This document shows positions 2,644-38,790 of a stretch of 64,000 nt of DNA, in pieces. The notes beneath the pieces are model-generated. The model was not told where the DNA came from, did no database searches, and saw only the letters and a program-made list of their open reading frames with translations. Each line of letters starts with the position of its first letter. Within the stretch, counting starts at the first letter, position 1. The stretch comes from Paenibacillus swuensis. GTDB lineage: Bacteria > Bacillota > Bacilli > Paenibacillales > DY6. The stretch covers positions 4,321,501 to 4,385,500 of the forward strand of contig NZ_CP011388.1 of NCBI RefSeq assembly GCF_001644605.1, given 5' to 3'. The translations under genes and the position numbers were made by a program.

Positions 2644-3021
2644 TTAAGACGCCATTTCTTTAGCTGCAGGAAGACCGATGTAAATCTGTCCATCTTCAAT
2701 ACGAACCGGGTATGTCGTCACACAGCCTGTATCCGGGGCCTGAACCAGCCCAGACATTAAATCGATTTTACGGTCATGCATCGGGCAAAATACGTGTTCC
2801 CCGGCAACGATCCCCTCGGCAAGCACGCCGTCTTTATGGGGGCAACGATTCTGAATCGCTCGGATCGTCCCACTGGAAAGTTTGAACAAAGCCACTTCTG
2901 TCGCATCGCATCGAATCGTCTTCCCCGTATTGAAAGCCAGGTCCTCATAAGCTACAGCCGCATACCATGCCAATTGCCCCTCTGTACCTGCCGAATGTAA
3001 AGTTGTGTTGTTCATGTTCAT
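2644..3021 (-). CDS. nirD: Nitrite reductase small subunit NirD (NasE), Rieske-type
   Basis: A 125-aa Rieske [2Fe-2S] protein. The cluster ligands are visible as C60-x-H62 (CPH) and C79-x2-H82 (CPMH). It is the small subunit of the NAD(P)H nitrite reductase that converts nitrite to ammonium in the cytoplasm. It sits between nirB (23-bp gap) and nasC (0-bp gap) on the same strand. The start at 3021 follows GGAGG with an 8-nt spacing; a second ATG two codons later is possible. It is a little longer than B. subtilis NasE, with about 15 additional N-terminal residues. Confidence 0.94.
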
Positions 3022-3043: not shown

Positions 3044-5473
3044 TTATGATTTAATCTCTACGACTTCATACAAATCTTTACGAATGGTTGCGTTGTTGAC
3101 CGCTTCTTTCCATGGATCTTTAGTAACGGAAAGGGTCTCATTCATCCGTGCGCACAATCCGGCCCGTTGTTCCGGATCGCTGATTACTTCTTTAATAGTA
3201 TCTATGCCTAAACGTTTCACCCATTCGGATGTACGCTCTCCATATATGCCCGTTTCACGGTAATACTGCAAGTAAGCTTCTGTGTATTCGATAACCTCCG
3301 ATTCGGTCTTCACCACCATCATCAAGTCGCCGGCACGTACTTTGACCCCGCCGTTTCCTCCCGCATAGAGCTCCCAACCGCCGTCGATCGCCACAACGCC
3401 CAGATCCTTAATGCCGGACTCCGCGCAGTTCCGCGGACAGCCGGATACAGCCATTTTCACTTTGGCCGGCGTGTTCAACCGCTCGAATCGTTTCTCCAAC
3501 TGGATTCCCATGCCCATGGCATCCGCAGTTCCGAACCGGCAGTAGGTATCACCCACGCAAGTTTTCACTGTCCGCAAGGCCTTCCCATAAGCATAACCGG
3601 ATGGCATATCCAGGTCTTCCCACATCTGGGTCAGATGTTCTTTCTTCACACCCAGTAAGTCGATCCGTTGTCCTCCGGTAAATTTCACGGTAGGCACTTC
3701 AAACTTCTCAGCGACTTCGGCGATTCGTTTAAGCTCCGCAGGAGAAGTTACACCGCCGTAAATGCGGGGAATAACGGAATAGGTGCCGTCCTTCTGGATA
3801 TTCGCATGCATTCTCTCATTTACAAACCGGGATGTCGGATCATCCGCATACGTAGTAGGGTTTAGCATGGCCAAATAATAATTAAGGGCAGGTCTGCACT
3901 TGGAACATCCGCCTTCGTTCTTCCAGGCCAGCACACTCATGACTTCCTTGACGTGGCTGAGACCTTTCTCTTTCATGGCCGCCAAAATTTCTTCGCGGGA
4001 ATGGTCCGTACAACCGCAAATCGTCTCTTTGCCTGACGTTTTCTCATAAGCATCGCCCAACGTATAACTTAACAGCTCGCTGACCAGAGGCTTACAACCT
4101 CCGCAAGAGCGGGAAGCCGTGGTGCAGTTCTTCACTTCTTCCACCGATGTGAGCCCTTGATCCTTAATCGCTGAACAGATCGTCCCTTTGCTGACGCCGT
4201 TACAACCGCAGATGATCGCGTCATCGGCCATCTCGGCTACTCCGGAACCCCCTCCGTTGCCTGAGCCGCTGTTATCTCTCAGAATCGCTGTTTTTTCTAA
4301 GCCGGAGATGTCATCACCGTTGCGAATCATCTGCATCAATCGGGTGCCGTCGGCTGTATCCCCGAACAATACCGCGCCTACAATTTTGTTGTCCTTGACC
4401 ACTACCTTCTTGTATATACCGGAGAACTCATCGTGCACACGGATCGCCTTCGTATCTTCAGCGTCCATGAATTGTCCGCCGGAGAATACGTCTACGCCGG
4501 AAACTTTCAACTTCGTGTACACGACTGAGCCTTCATAAGGTACGGTTTCCGCACCGGCCAACCGTTTGGCTAACACAGCCCCTTGCTCATACAGCGGAGC
4601 CACGAGTCCGTATACCGCGCCGCGATGCTGCGCGCATTCCCCGACCGCATAAACGTTGGGCACGCTTGTTTGCAAGTAGTCGTCAACCACGATCCCGTTA
4701 GCCACCTCAAGCCCTGATTCTCGGGCTAAAGCTACATTCGGCCGAATGCCGACCGCCATGACGATTAAATCCGCTTCCGCAACCGTTCCGTCTTTAAATT
4801 TAAGGCCTTGGACACGCTCATCGCCGATAATCGATTCCGTTTGTTTTTCCAGCAGGAAGTTCATTCCCTGTGCTTCAAGAGCTTCTTGAAGCATCTTGGA
4901 GGCAGTCCGGTCCAGCTGCCGCTCCATAATCGTATCCACGATATGCACAACATCCACCTGCATGCCGAGATTCAGGAAGCCACGGGCCGCCTCCAGCCCC
5001 AGCAGACCGCCGCCGATCACGACGGCTTTCTTGTACTGCTGGGAAGCTTCAATCATAATCTCGCAATCCCGAATCGTTCTGTAAGCCATGACTCCTTCTT
5101 TATCGGCGCCCGGTAAAGGTAACATGAACGGATTTGAGCCCGTGGCAACAATCAGCTTATCGTACGCGACCGTAAGACCGCTGTCTGTAGTGACGTTTTG
5201 ACCTGCAGTGTCTACGGATGTTACCGTTTCGTTACTATATAAATGAATACCGTTTGCTTCATACCACTCCATCGGATGAATCACGATATCCTCTACCTTC
5301 GAGTCCCCAGCCAATACATAGGAAAGTAAAATCCGATTGTAGTTTGGATGAGGCTCACTGCCAAATACCGTGATATCGTACTTATGCGGAGCCAACTTAA
5401 TAATATGTTCAATCGTATTCATGCCCGCCATTCCGTTACCGATTAACACTAACTTTTCTCTGGATTCACCCAT
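3044..5473 (-). CDS. nirB: NAD(P)H nitrite reductase large subunit NirB (NasD)
   Basis: An 809-aa protein with full-length NirB architecture. It has an N-terminal FAD/NAD(P) pyridine nucleotide-disulfide oxidoreductase module ([17 protein letters not shown] at the start, [14 protein letters not shown] near residue 150). Two BFD-like [2Fe-2S] regions follow ([11 protein letters not shown] with CGGCKP, then [11 protein letters not shown] with CSKCRP, about 420-535), then the siroheme/[4Fe-4S] sulfite-reductase-like domain with C-x5-C (CVGDTYC) and C-x3-C (CPRNC). It reduces nitrite to ammonium in the cytoplasm with NirD. The start is preceded by GAGGAGG at an 8-nt spacing. It lies 45 bp downstream of the nitrate transporter gene in the same operon. 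Confidence 0.97.
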
Positions 5474-5518: not shown

Positions 5519-6763
5519 CTAAGCTTGGATTTGCGGCTCTTCCACCCGAAGCGCAGATACTTTACCGCCTTCGCCGATCCAAGTGCGTTTCCATTCCTTT
5601 TGCACAATCAAAATGACGAAGATACACAACAACGCAATCCCGCTCAATATGAGAAAGCCCGGCGTGAACGATCCTGTGGAAAGCTTCAGATTACCGAGAA
5701 TTTTCGGAAGGAAAAACCCGCCTAGTCCCCCTGCCGCTCCCACAATACCTGTTACAATGCCGATTTCTTGTTGGAATCGTTGAGGAACAAGCTGGAATAC
5801 CGATCCGTTCCCCATTCCGAGACCCATCATACCGATGAACAACAAGGTCGTTGTAATCCCTATGCTTGGCAATGTGGAGACACCCAGTAACATGAGCGAG
5901 ATTACACCGTACAGCACCATCAGCATCCGAATGCCTCCGAGACGATCTGCCAGATACCCGCCTACCGGACGGAAGAAGGAACCCGCCAACACACATAATG
6001 TTGTAAAGTCGGCAGCTCTGATCGGATCCAGATTGTATTGCGTGTTAAAGAATATGGTTAGGTAATTGGACATGCCCACAAATCCCCCGAAGGTGACGGC
6101 ATACAGCAGGCAGAACAACCACGAATCTTTTTGTTTCAAAACGTTGCCGTAATCCCTTAATTTCTTCGGAGCCGGCTGATTCGGACTGTCTTTAGCCAAC
6201 AGGGAGAACACAATGAATGTAATAACAATCGGTATCAGCGCAATGCCGAATACAATGTGCCAATCCCCGTAGTGCTGTGCAATCCGATTAGCGAACAAGG
6301 TCGTGATAATCGTTCCGCTGTTCCCTGCCCCGGCAATTCCCATCGCTAAACCTTGATGTTCCGGCGGATACCAGCGACTTGCTAACGGCAAGGCGGCCGC
6401 AAAGCTTGCTCCGGCAACACCTAACATTAAAGCCACCATGTATACATTCGATAAACTGTCCGCGAATTGCCATCCGATGACCAGCGGGATTACGGTAAGC
6501 CCCAATCCTAACTGTCCTGTCCGCTTAGGCCCGATATAATCCGTTAAATATCCCAAAACCAGCCTTAAGATAGATCCCCCCAAGATCGGCAGGGCAACCA
6601 AATTTGCTTTCTGGGCGGCGTCCAAGCCGTATTCTTGCGCAATAATGACAGCCAGCGGTCCAAGTAATACCCATACCATGAAACTAATGTCAAAATACAG
6701 AAATGCACTGAATAAAGACCCCTTATGCCCGCTTTGCAAAAAGCTTTTCTTCTCCATCCCCAT
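5519..6763 (-). CDS. nasA: Nitrate/nitrite MFS transporter (NarK/NasA family)
   Basis: A 414-aa integral membrane protein of the nitrate/nitrite porter family, with about 12 hydrophobic segments. Nitrate-signature-like glycine-rich stretches are visible (GVAGASFAAALPLASRWYP, GIAGAGNSGTIIT). It is the first gene of the operon and imports nitrate across the cytoplasmic membrane for NasC and NirBD. An in-frame extension reaches 6808, but the start chosen is ATG 6761-6763 (MGMEKKS) because AAAAGGAG lies 5 nt upstream; ATG 6755-6757 is an alternative. Expression is probably controlled by the leader terminator and hairpins between the promoter and this start. Confidence 0.93.
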   Translation of the reverse strand: MGMEKKSFLQSGHKGSLFSAFLYFDISFMVWVLLGPLAVIIAQEYGLDAAQKANLVALPILGGSILRLVLGYLTDYIGPKRTGQLGLGLTVIPLVIGWQFADSLSNVYMVALMLGVAGASFAAALPLASRWYPPEHQGLAMGIAGAGNSGTIITTLFANRIAQHYGDWHIVFGIALIPIVITFIVFSLLAKDSPNQPAPKKLRDYGNVLKQKDSWLFCLLYAVTFGGFVGMSNYLTIFFNTQYNLDPIRAADFTTLCVLAGSFFRPVGGYLADRLGGIRMLMVLYGVISLMLLGVSTLPSIGITTTLLFIGMMGLGMGNGSVFQLVPQRFQQEIGIVTGIVGAAGGLGGFFLPKILGNLKLSTGSFTPGFLILSGIALLCIFVILIVQKEWKRTWIGEGGKVSALRVEEPQIQA

Positions 6764-6790: not shown

Positions 6791-6848
6791 AATAACAAAA
6801 GCCGCCAAACCGAAGAGGAGATGTGGCTCCCACTTGCGGTTAGCGGCT
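6791..6848 (-). terminator. Intrinsic terminator (attenuator) in the nas operon leader
   Basis: On the minus strand AGCCGC/GCGGCT and AACCG/CGGTT arms (6800-6812 with 6837-6848) form a long stem with a small bulge. The loop holds an inner GTGG/CCAC hairpin, and a U-rich run (TTTTGTTATT) follows. It stands about 28 nt before the nasA start and would stop transcription unless the upstream structure prevents it. Its 5' arm overlaps the fourth hexaloop hairpin (6844-6857), so the two folds exclude each other, as expected for antitermination. Confidence 0.82.
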
Positions 6849-6977
6849 TCATTGCCGTTCTTCTGCGATTACTTCATTGTGACCGCAGAAGGATATGAAT
6901 ACAGAAATAGCCTATCCTCGTCATTAAGGATAGGCGCCGTTGCCTAAAAAATGTAATCCGTGGCACTTCGCTGTGCC
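6844..6977 (-). promoter_or_regulatory. Four-hairpin ANTAR-type antitermination leader of the nas operon
   Basis: In the minus-strand leader RNA four stem-loops each end in a six-base loop with A at position 1 and G at position 4. They are: 6962-6977, 5-bp GGCAC/GTGCC stem, loop AGCGAA; 6910-6935, 10-bp stem including one G-U, loop AATGAC; 6860-6891, 8-bp outer stem with an imperfect inner part, loop AATGAA; 6844-6857, 4-bp CGGC/GCCG stem, loop AATGAA. Known ANTAR target RNAs are pairs of such hexaloop hairpins, the second overlapping a terminator. Here two pairs seem to be stacked before one terminator. The divergent ANTAR gene at 7164 is the obvious candidate binder. Confidence 0.75.
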
Positions 6978-7000
6978 GTTCACGTCAGTGTGATAAGGTA

Positions 7001-7029
7001 ATTATATGTCGATGCATTTCAGATGTCAA
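7001..7029 (-). promoter_or_regulatory. Sigma-A promoter of the nas operon
   Basis: The minus strand reads TTGACA (7024-7029), a 17-bp spacer and TATAAT (7001-7006), a consensus sigma-A promoter. Transcription would start near 6994, giving a leader of about 230 nt before nasA. Confidence 0.88.
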
Positions 7030-7131: not shown

Positions 7132-7163
7132 TTTCTCGCAATAAAGTTTATGGGGGTATGAAG

Positions 7164-7817
7164 ATGCTGCAAACGTTTATCCTCATTGATGATTTCTCAG
7201 CAGAACGTAAGAAAGCCGTAACCAATACCCAGACGGTCCCTCCAACTTCCGCCGACGTTTCAGGAAGGCATATGCTTCCCGAACCGAAGTTAAAGCATCT
7301 TGGATTTCGATTGCATCCGCATAAACACGATTCCCCCGCTGAAGGGAATGTGCATCTGGCAGATGCGGTAATCTTGGCCGTGCTTCCCGAAGAGATCGCT
7401 TCTTGGCGCAGCCGTTTGACCGCAATCAAGCCGCTCCCGCTCATATGGTGGTGTGATGAATTTACCTTTCCAGGCAGTAACTGTACGTTAGATATGGAGA
7501 TTGACGGAATGCTCAGTCCGGGCATGAACGCATCCGAAATTCATTGCACCATGCTTCTTTCCTTTAATAGGCATATTCAACGAAGAGACTGGCACATGGA
7601 GCGCGAGCAGCTGCTCTCCCGGCTGGAAGAGCGCAAATGGGTGGAGCAAGCCAAACGGATCTTATGCGAGATCAAGGGAATTACCGAGGCTGACGCTTAT
7701 GACTTTTTACGTAAACAGGCCATGAATGAACGGAAGAGGATTGTTGACGTATCCACCTCCATTGTTAAAGTTTATCAATTACTTCAGGATCAGAACAAAG
7801 GAGGACGAACACGATGA
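7164..7817 (+). CDS. ANTAR-domain antiterminator with degenerate receiver domain (NasT-like)
   Basis: A 217-aa protein. Residues about 150-212 match an ANTAR RNA-binding domain (LSRLEERKWVEQAKRILCE, then EADAYDFLRKQAMNERKRIVDV). The N-terminal part has the layout of a receiver domain (FILIDD at the start, ADAVILAVLP as strand 3) but carries alanine where the phosphoacceptor Asp is expected, and the usual K-P near the end reads S-P (GMLSPG). It is therefore probably not a phosphorylated response regulator. ANTAR proteins bind tandem hexaloop hairpins and prevent termination; the nas leader next door carries such hairpins. The start at 7164 has GGGGG 7 nt upstream; ATG 7158 is too close to it. 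The stop overlaps the next gene by 4 bp. Confidence 0.85.
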   Translation: MLQTFILIDDFSAERKKAVTNTQTVPPTSADVSGRHMLPEPKLKHLGFRLHPHKHDSPAEGNVHLADAVILAVLPEEIASWRSRLTAIKPLPLIWWCDEFTFPGSNCTLDMEIDGMLSPGMNASEIHCTMLLSFNRHIQRRDWHMEREQLLSRLEERKWVEQAKRILCEIKGITEADAYDFLRKQAMNERKRIVDVSTSIVKVYQLLQDQNKGGRTR

Positions 7818-8848
7818 TTACTCTGCTTAAGGAAGTTGGACGCGGAAAGCGCGGCGCCCGGGACCTAACCTATGAAGAAGCGAGGAAAGCAGCCCGTCTG
7901 ATTCTGAGCGGCGAGGCCACTCCCGTGCAGATCGGCGCCTTTCTCGTTGCGGAACGCATTAAGATGGAATCCATTGAAGAGATTCAGGCGTTTGTTCATA
8001 CCTGCAAAGAACAAAGTCAACGATACCCGATGCCAGGGGGACTGGATTGTTCCGGTCCATATGACGGCCGGACACGCACTTTCATTGCCACGATCCCGAC
8101 CGCCTTTGTGCTGTCGGCCTGCGGCTTACCTGTAACGCTTCACGGAAGCAAGTCCTTGCCGCCAAAGTGGGGCATTACCCTAAGCGATGTTTTCTCCGCA
8201 TTAGGGGTACCCGCAGGTGAACTGCCCTCGGAGGCTTTGACTGCCGCGGCGGAACAGACATCCCTTCTCTTCGTACCGGCTGAACGCTGGTGCCCGGCAT
8301 TGGCCCAAATGAGACCTTACAGGGAACAACTGGGGCTTCGTACCGTTTTCAATTCCGCCGAGAAGCTGTTGCGATATTCCGAAGCGGATTACATGGTTAC
8401 GGGTGTATTTCACGGAACGGTATTCGAGAAAATGGCGAAACTCGTTGGAGACCTCGGTGTTAAGCGTGGATTGATTGTCCAAGGAATGGAAGGCTCCGAG
8501 GATTTAACGGTTGATAAGCGCACTAGAACCTACACTGTAAACGACGGCCATTGCGAGTTATTCGTTATTGATCCCGAAGTGTATGAGCTGCAGACAGAAT
8601 TACCGGAGGTGCCCGAAGGCTACTGGGACGCACAACAGCAAGCCGCAACTTGCATGAGTGTCCTTCATGGGAACGCGGAACTGGCCTACGTAAACATGGT
8701 TCTATTGAACAGCGCCGTTCGCTTATGGATTGCTGAGAAAGCCGAATCCATTGAACAAGGCGTATACATTGCCAAGGGCGCGCTTGAAAGCGGAGATGCT
8801 TTAAGACAGTTTGAAGCTTGGCAGCATGGAGTCATGAAATATTCATAG
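7814..8848 (+). CDS. TrpD2-like glycosyltransferase family protein (anthranilate phosphoribosyltransferase homologue)
   Basis: A 344-aa protein of the anthranilate phosphoribosyltransferase/thymidine phosphorylase fold, closer to the YbiB/TrpD2 branch than to biosynthetic TrpD. Visible are the N-terminal helical domain (LTYEEARKAARLILSGEATPVQIGAFLVAERIK), a weakened glycine-rich region (CSGPYDGRTRTF instead of the TrpD GTGGD motif) and GIT..DVF..LG. No trp genes are nearby. The start ATGA overlaps the ANTAR stop and has AAAGGAGG 9 nt upstream, so the two are translationally coupled. TrpD2 proteins in proteobacteria bind nucleic acid; whether this one does is unknown. The link to nitrate control is inferred from position only. 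Confidence 0.75.
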   Translation: MITLLKEVGRGKRGARDLTYEEARKAARLILSGEATPVQIGAFLVAERIKMESIEEIQAFVHTCKEQSQRYPMPGGLDCSGPYDGRTRTFIATIPTAFVLSACGLPVTLHGSKSLPPKWGITLSDVFSALGVPAGELPSEALTAAAEQTSLLFVPAERWCPALAQMRPYREQLGLRTVFNSAEKLLRYSEADYMVTGVFHGTVFEKMAKLVGDLGVKRGLIVQGMEGSEDLTVDKRTRTYTVNDGHCELFVIDPEVYELQTELPEVPEGYWDAQQQAATCMSVLHGNAELAYVNMVLLNSAVRLWIAEKAESIEQGVYIAKGALESGDALRQFEAWQHGVMKYS

Positions 8849-38640: not shown

Positions 38641-38790
38641 TCCTTCTCCCTTCGAATTGGCCTGCGAGGTTAGCTGTCGGGTTAGGACGAAAAGAGAATG
38701 CCCCGCCGCGGAAAGATCGGCTTCACCCCAAATCCAAATACATGGGTTCCCCGTGCTTCATTAAGAGCTTCGGCCTTTATGTTGTGTTCT
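38641..38790 (-). ncRNA. Cyclic di-AMP (ydaO/yuaA) riboswitch
   Basis: The minus-strand 5' leader carries the conserved ydaO blocks in order: CACGGGGAACCCATG, then TTTGGGGTGAAGCCG, then CCTAACCCGACAGCTAACC with TCGCAGGC, ending in GAAGGGAGAAGG, which serves as the RBS region of the CAP/LysM gene. ydaO RNAs bind c-di-AMP and usually turn off cell-wall and osmolyte genes. The exact 5' boundary is approximate. Confidence 0.88.

Follow-up and report, generated by a model that had tools for sequence, protein, structure and literature searches.

Two predicted ANTAR attenuators in series in the nitrate assimilation leader of Paenibacillus swuensis

We propose that the leader of the narK-nirB-nirD-nasC operon of Paenibacillus swuensis contains two complete ANTAR attenuators in series, and that both are read by one divergently encoded ANTAR protein (probability around 80%). 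The leader lies on the minus strand of the 64,000-nucleotide stretch of DNA that we analyzed (the window). Judged by its sequence, it has a 2+2 arrangement, with two pairs of hexaloop hairpins and two terminators. The first gene of the operon encodes a nitrate/nitrite MFS transporter of the narK type (5519-6763; TIGR00886, 300 bits with a cut-off of 312). The other genes, also on the minus strand, encode the large and small subunits of nitrite reductase (nirB, 3044-5473, TIGR02374; nirD, 2644-3021, TIGR02378) and a nasC-type assimilatory nitrate reductase (529-2643; NF047855, 957 bits, under the cut-off of 1100). The putative promoter (TTGACA-17-TATAAT, 7001-7029, minus strand) matches the consensus at 12/12 positions, and its position is conserved among relatives.

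Each attenuator, or module, is a pair of hexaloop hairpins plus an intrinsic terminator that overlaps the second hairpin (all coordinates of the leader are on the minus strand). In module 1, a scan for hexaloop hairpins identified P1 (6962-6977), with the loop AGCGAA closed by a C-G pair, and P2 (6931-6946), which reads TAGGC-AACGGC-GCCTA. A scan for intrinsic terminators, which was independent of the hexaloop scan, identified terminator 1 (T1, 6910-6935), a 10-bp hairpin followed by the T-rich tail TATTTCTGTA. In module 2, the hexaloop scan identified P1' (6860-6891), which has the loop AATGAA on a long stem with one mismatch, and P2' (6844-6857), which has the same loop. Terminator 2 (T2, 6798-6850, in the context TTTTGTTATT) is a long hairpin of -28.7 kcal/mol whose stem covaries in relatives. 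P2 shares its 3' arm with T1, and P2' shares its 3' arm with T2; the two structures of each pair are mutually exclusive. Each of the four P loops in the window has six bases, A at position 1 (A1), G at position 4 (G4), and a C-G closing pair. The leader folds far better than its own shuffles (z = -6.7). There may be an additional hexaloop hairpin at the 5' end (6980-6993, loop ACTGAC, 4 bp, -2.3 kcal/mol in the hexaloop scan). We considered it as a piece of a third module, but its stem is weak and no terminator overlaps it, so we list it as possible only; among the nearest ANTAR relatives, there is a stronger hairpin near the equivalent place (in P. allorhizosphaerae, with the loop AAUGAC).

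An earlier note on this DNA had recognized the leader of a nitrate-assimilation operon as an ANTAR target, with hexaloops beyond the usual single pair, and had described it as four A1/G4 hairpins before one terminator. The four hairpins are indeed present on the minus strand (AGCGAA at 6977-6962, AATGAC at 6935-6910, and AATGAA at both 6891-6860 and 6857-6844), and three of them are P1, P1', and P2'. However, the AATGAC hairpin is T1, and the AACGGC hairpin at 6946-6931 had been missed. This hairpin redraws the layout of the leader, because the GCCTA segment serves both as its 3' arm and as the 5' arm of the AATGAC hairpin. The note was right that the last hairpin overlaps the 5' arm of a terminator, as P2' does with T2, but T2 is not the sole terminator: each P pair has its own. 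The T1 loop in the window is closed by a U-G pair. Since SELEX with NasR selects loops that are closed by C:G (PMC7496416), we exclude the T1 loop as a P loop.

We searched for composite modules, defined as a P1 of at least 4 bp and a P2 of at least 3 bp with C-G-closed [AG]NNGNN loops and an overlapping terminator. In the 128 kb of window strand that was searched, there are exactly two, and both are in the nas leader. For the 80 named relatives, the search of 897 kb of strand gave 99 composite modules inside the nas-leader zone and 3 outside it. As for single hexaloop hairpins (-3 kcal/mol or better), nowhere else in the 64-kb window, on either strand, are there more than two within 170 nt. 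We also used a covariance model (CM) of the dual-hexaloop element, which was built partly from the window's own two elements and which matches them with 34.8 bits (module 2, 6885-6844) and 27.3 bits (module 1, 6979-6932). When we searched the 5-Mb genome with this model, we did not find any credible dual-hexaloop element beyond the two modules in the nas leader. (A third match, at C1:267410 with 22.3 bits, is antisense within the gene for an ABC-transporter ATPase and has no terminator, so we judged it to be due to chance.) A comparison to Rfam, which the earlier note had suggested as a check, gave nothing relevant: no ANTAR-type family was reported for the leader even at E = 10.

Relatives of the regulator are present in 134 of 198 related genomes. 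By a strict composite rule, the leaders at 80 named loci have one module (55 loci), two modules (22 loci), or none (3 loci). The one-module leaders are mostly from Paenibacillus sensu stricto and Cohnella, with P. ferrarius and MAHUQ63 counted as one-module solely through the U-tract rule. Nearly all of the two-module leaders are from the group of P. pectinilyticus, P. alginolyticus, P. validus, and P. ehimensis; the two-module count for Gordonibacillus stems from a shared hairpin and is not a true tandem. On a quick tree of ANTAR proteins, in which the placement of the window's protein is not strongly supported, tandem leaders fall close together, and the state would have been lost or gained several times. 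A CM search with stricter filters of a class-wide sample (398 genomes without the tandem Paenibacillus) identified no further pair of modules in tandem on the same strand, a result that bears little on how common the tandem is.

To compare sequences position by position, we aligned 28 tandem-type leaders, including five from the P. tyrfis clade in which T2 has decayed. For both the antiterminator and the terminator forms, the covariation score is above all 500 shuffles and above all slid controls. Compensatory changes are seen across the stems and the terminators. Related leaders have both the paired loops and the covarying stems that the earlier note had looked to them for. The core pairs of P2 and P2' are invariant (the P2 stem of module 1 is GGC/GCC in 28/28 leaders), so they are uninformative about covariation either way. 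In all 28 leaders, each of the four P loops has six bases, G4, and the C-G closing pair. A1 is present in 28/28 leaders for P1 and for P2 and in 26/28 for P2', but in just 6/28 for P1', where the other 22 leaders have G. We considered whether the AATGAC hairpin is a conserved site of binding and concluded that it is not: the T1 stem is paired in 100% of the cells of the alignment, but it carries an A1/G4 hexaloop in the window genome only and not in the 27 other tandem leaders. Some lineages have lost one terminator or the other. P. whitsoniae and P. athensensis lack T1 and retain T2; T1 is also lost in P. piri. In the P. tyrfis clade, T2 is decayed and T1 is stronger (-20.7 to -26.7 kcal/mol, versus about -15 kcal/mol). 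Both kinds of variants are expected if both terminators work.

The two modules resemble two different types of leaders. At the 80 loci, single-module leaders that face the ANTAR gene mostly precede nirB, and the narK-first loci are all in the tandem group or in the group with an extra loop. The CM search showed that, in the Paenibacillaceae, nirB and narK are found with separate one-module leaders. The second target in this search is narK, which is often head-to-head with another nirB-like gene and away from the ANTAR gene, and each of the two genes has its own ANTAR attenuator (10 such divergent loci). We made profiles of each type from the separate leaders and then tested them on the tandem leaders. 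Module 1 was most similar to the stand-alone nirB leader (the one that is divergent from narK) in 28/28 tandem leaders, and module 2 was most similar to the narK leader in 28/28, with the narK profile favored by only 3.3 bits for the window's own module 2. In a leave-one-out test on the reference sets, the profiles were correct for 35/36 leaders.

Given these uniform assignments, the tandem probably combines two switches that already existed. Because the modules differ in type and are not copies of each other, the most likely origin is that two operons, each with its leader, became joined. We infer the direction of evolution from the sequences; alternatively, the separate-leader state could be the derived one. 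In a fuller scenario, ancestral leaders of the nirB type and the narK type, both from one regulon, were joined when the genes merged. This would have turned two nitrate checkpoints into one two-step, more digital checkpoint, and lineages would have tuned it later by losing either terminator. We would give this scenario even odds.

The earlier note placed the cognate ANTAR gene divergent from and adjacent to the operon, and we agree (7158-7817, plus strand, PF03861). This gene, which adjoins the nas leader, is the only ANTAR gene that we found in the genome, so both modules have a single candidate regulator. The predicted structure of the protein (pLDDT 90.4) has a receiver-like domain (a pseudo-receiver), a long coiled coil, and an ANTAR domain, and it is most similar, among solved structures, to RNA-bound EutV (6ww6) and AmiR (1qo0). 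The RNA-contacting residues of EutV (R142, K143, Y164, and M172; PMC8934654) correspond to R159, K160, Y181, and M189, which are invariant in a 43-row alignment. The equivalent of K147 of EutV is Q.

The regulator has no match to the NIT domain, and its N-terminal half is receiver-like instead. The nitrate signal must therefore arrive another way, perhaps via a partner protein, by analogy to AmiC-AmiR or NasS-NasT. The stop codon of the ANTAR gene is overlapped by a gene from the TrpD/TrpD2-like glycosyltransferase family (7814-8848, plus strand, PF00591/PF02885). In 74 of 80 relatives, the ANTAR gene is followed by a TrpD2-like gene. Within the stretch examined, this gene was not found in Paenibacillus sp. 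cl123 or in the P. tyrfis clade, whose T2 is decayed. Our guess is that the TrpD2-like protein might be the sensor partner of the regulator.

It has been proposed that ANTAR dimers bind one hexaloop at once, with P1 recruiting the protein and P2 blocking the terminator (PMC8934654). If the two modules work this way, then without a signal, the nascent RNA would fold into T1, and any polymerases that escaped would then encounter T2. When nitrate or nitrite is present, the ANTAR dimer would bind P1 and then P2 as each emerges. P2 would hold the 5' arm of T1 so that the polymerase reads through, and the same would happen at P1'/P2' and T2. RNA polymerase would have to pass two checkpoints before reaching the nas genes. 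As each P pair has its own overlapping terminator, these are likely to be independent checkpoints in series and not a single switch with cooperative binding. With two attenuators in series, read-through should be roughly the product of two probabilities, which would keep leakage low and steepen the dose response. Riboswitches with this kind of layout have been termed pseudo-cooperative and are expected to be steeper (PMC9481103); by analogy, we expect the tandem to give a tighter and steeper response to nitrate.

Several points count against two working attenuators in the window. The tail of T1 is weaker than the TTTTT that is found in most relatives. The linker between P1 and P2 of module 1 is 16 nt, while it is 5-10 nt in most relatives (and 15 nt in P. 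alba and P. ferrarius). Lengthening the linker of eutP by 20 nt abolished antitermination (PMC8934654). (The linker between P1' and P2' of module 2 is short.) The stem of P1' in the window does not align column by column with P1' from the relatives. The replacement of K147 by Q, the lack of a NIT domain, and the 3.3-bit margin for module 2 also count against this model.

If module 2 alone were functional, then module 1 would be a relic that is kept by chance or for the structure of the mRNA. The weak T-tract after T1 in the window and the loss of T1 in P. whitsoniae, P. athensensis, and P. piri are consistent with this. But P1, P2, and T1 are the better conserved half of the leader, with A1 and G4 kept in both loops in 28/28 leaders and the T1 stem paired throughout, and module 2, not module 1, is the one that decays in the P. 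tyrfis clade. We think that a relic is unlikely. Instead of a terminator, T1 could be a pause hairpin, with the delay allowing the ANTAR protein to bind; alternatively, the short RNA that ends at T1 could titrate the protein, as EutX RNA does for EutV. The weak tail would fit with either role, and the T1-terminated RNA would keep P1 and, in the window genome only, the A1/G4 loop on T1. However, in most relatives T1 is followed by a full T5 tract, and mutual exclusivity of P2 and T1 is the standard arrangement for an attenuator (PMC3369931), so we view this as quite improbable.

We give even less credence to the model in the earlier note, in which four A1/G4 hexaloops are bound cooperatively before one terminator. 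Four such loops can be counted in the leader, but this count includes the AATGAC loop, which is A1/G4 in 1/28 leaders, is closed by U-G instead of C-G, and belongs to a terminator, and it leaves out the genuine P2 (AACGGC). We prefer two attenuators in series.

It is already known that nas operons are targets of ANTAR proteins and that a transcription unit can have several ANTAR attenuators. The leader in the window has much in common with the dual-hexaloop attenuators of Klebsiella nasF (NasR), Enterococcus eut (EutV), and Pseudomonas ami (AmiR): C-G-closed hexaloops with G4, P1 along with P2, overlap of P2 with an intrinsic terminator, an ANTAR regulator, and a link to nitrogen metabolism (PMC3369931, PMC7496416, PMC8934654). 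It differs from them in that two complete attenuators of different types are stacked and in that position 1 of the P1' loop is G in most of the tandem leaders (22/28). Also, NasR is a NIT-ANTAR protein, whereas the regulator in the window is of the pseudo-receiver type. In Desulfotomaculum acetoxidans, at least 13 ANTAR attenuators are found on 6 transcription units, hence more than one per unit; the main text of that study is silent on whether they are in series within one leader, and we saw no analysis of types or of covariation there (PMC3369931). Pseudo-cooperative tandem riboswitches (such as tandem TPP; PMC9481103) have two sensors for one signal, each with a terminator, in one leader, as we predict for this leader. 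In contrast to those, the leader in the window is predicted to be read by a protein, its modules would be ON switches, and they look like two types of leaders rather than a duplication. Our literature searches on tandem ANTAR and on tandem attenuators turned up no report of a leader that has two complete ANTAR attenuators or that combines two leader types. In the bgl operon of E. coli, BglG acts at two terminators that flank bglG. That system also has one antiterminator protein and two terminators in one operon, but the RNA element (RAT) and the protein family are different, and the bgl terminators are separated by a gene.

The tandem leader appears to extend the class of tandem terminators to a case that is read by a protein. 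The natural variants (single, tandem, T1 lost, T2 decayed, or with an extra loop) provide material for testing how attenuators combine. The alignment is also informative about recognition by ANTAR proteins: G4 is invariant in 112 loops, and G is tolerated at position 1, chiefly in one hairpin of the four, which agrees with the structure of EutV. Finally, the two module types suggest a route to tandem regulatory RNAs in which operons are joined along with their leaders, rather than one leader being duplicated.

We also note some unusual leaders. In P. piri, the loop of P1' is apparently AGCTTC, so that the otherwise invariant G4 is gone, and there is an isolated G4 hexaloop about 120 nt upstream. 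Four narK-first leaders have one lone hexaloop upstream and one module of the narK type; by sequence, they look like a tandem minus P2 and T1. Three other loci have a further hexaloop hairpin (GACAC, then AATGGG or AACGGG, then GTGTC) downstream of the nas terminator and near the start of the next gene, where it could act on translation. Elsewhere in the window, the ydaO/yuaA leader has a c-di-AMP riboswitch (38644-38785, minus strand, 87.5 bits).
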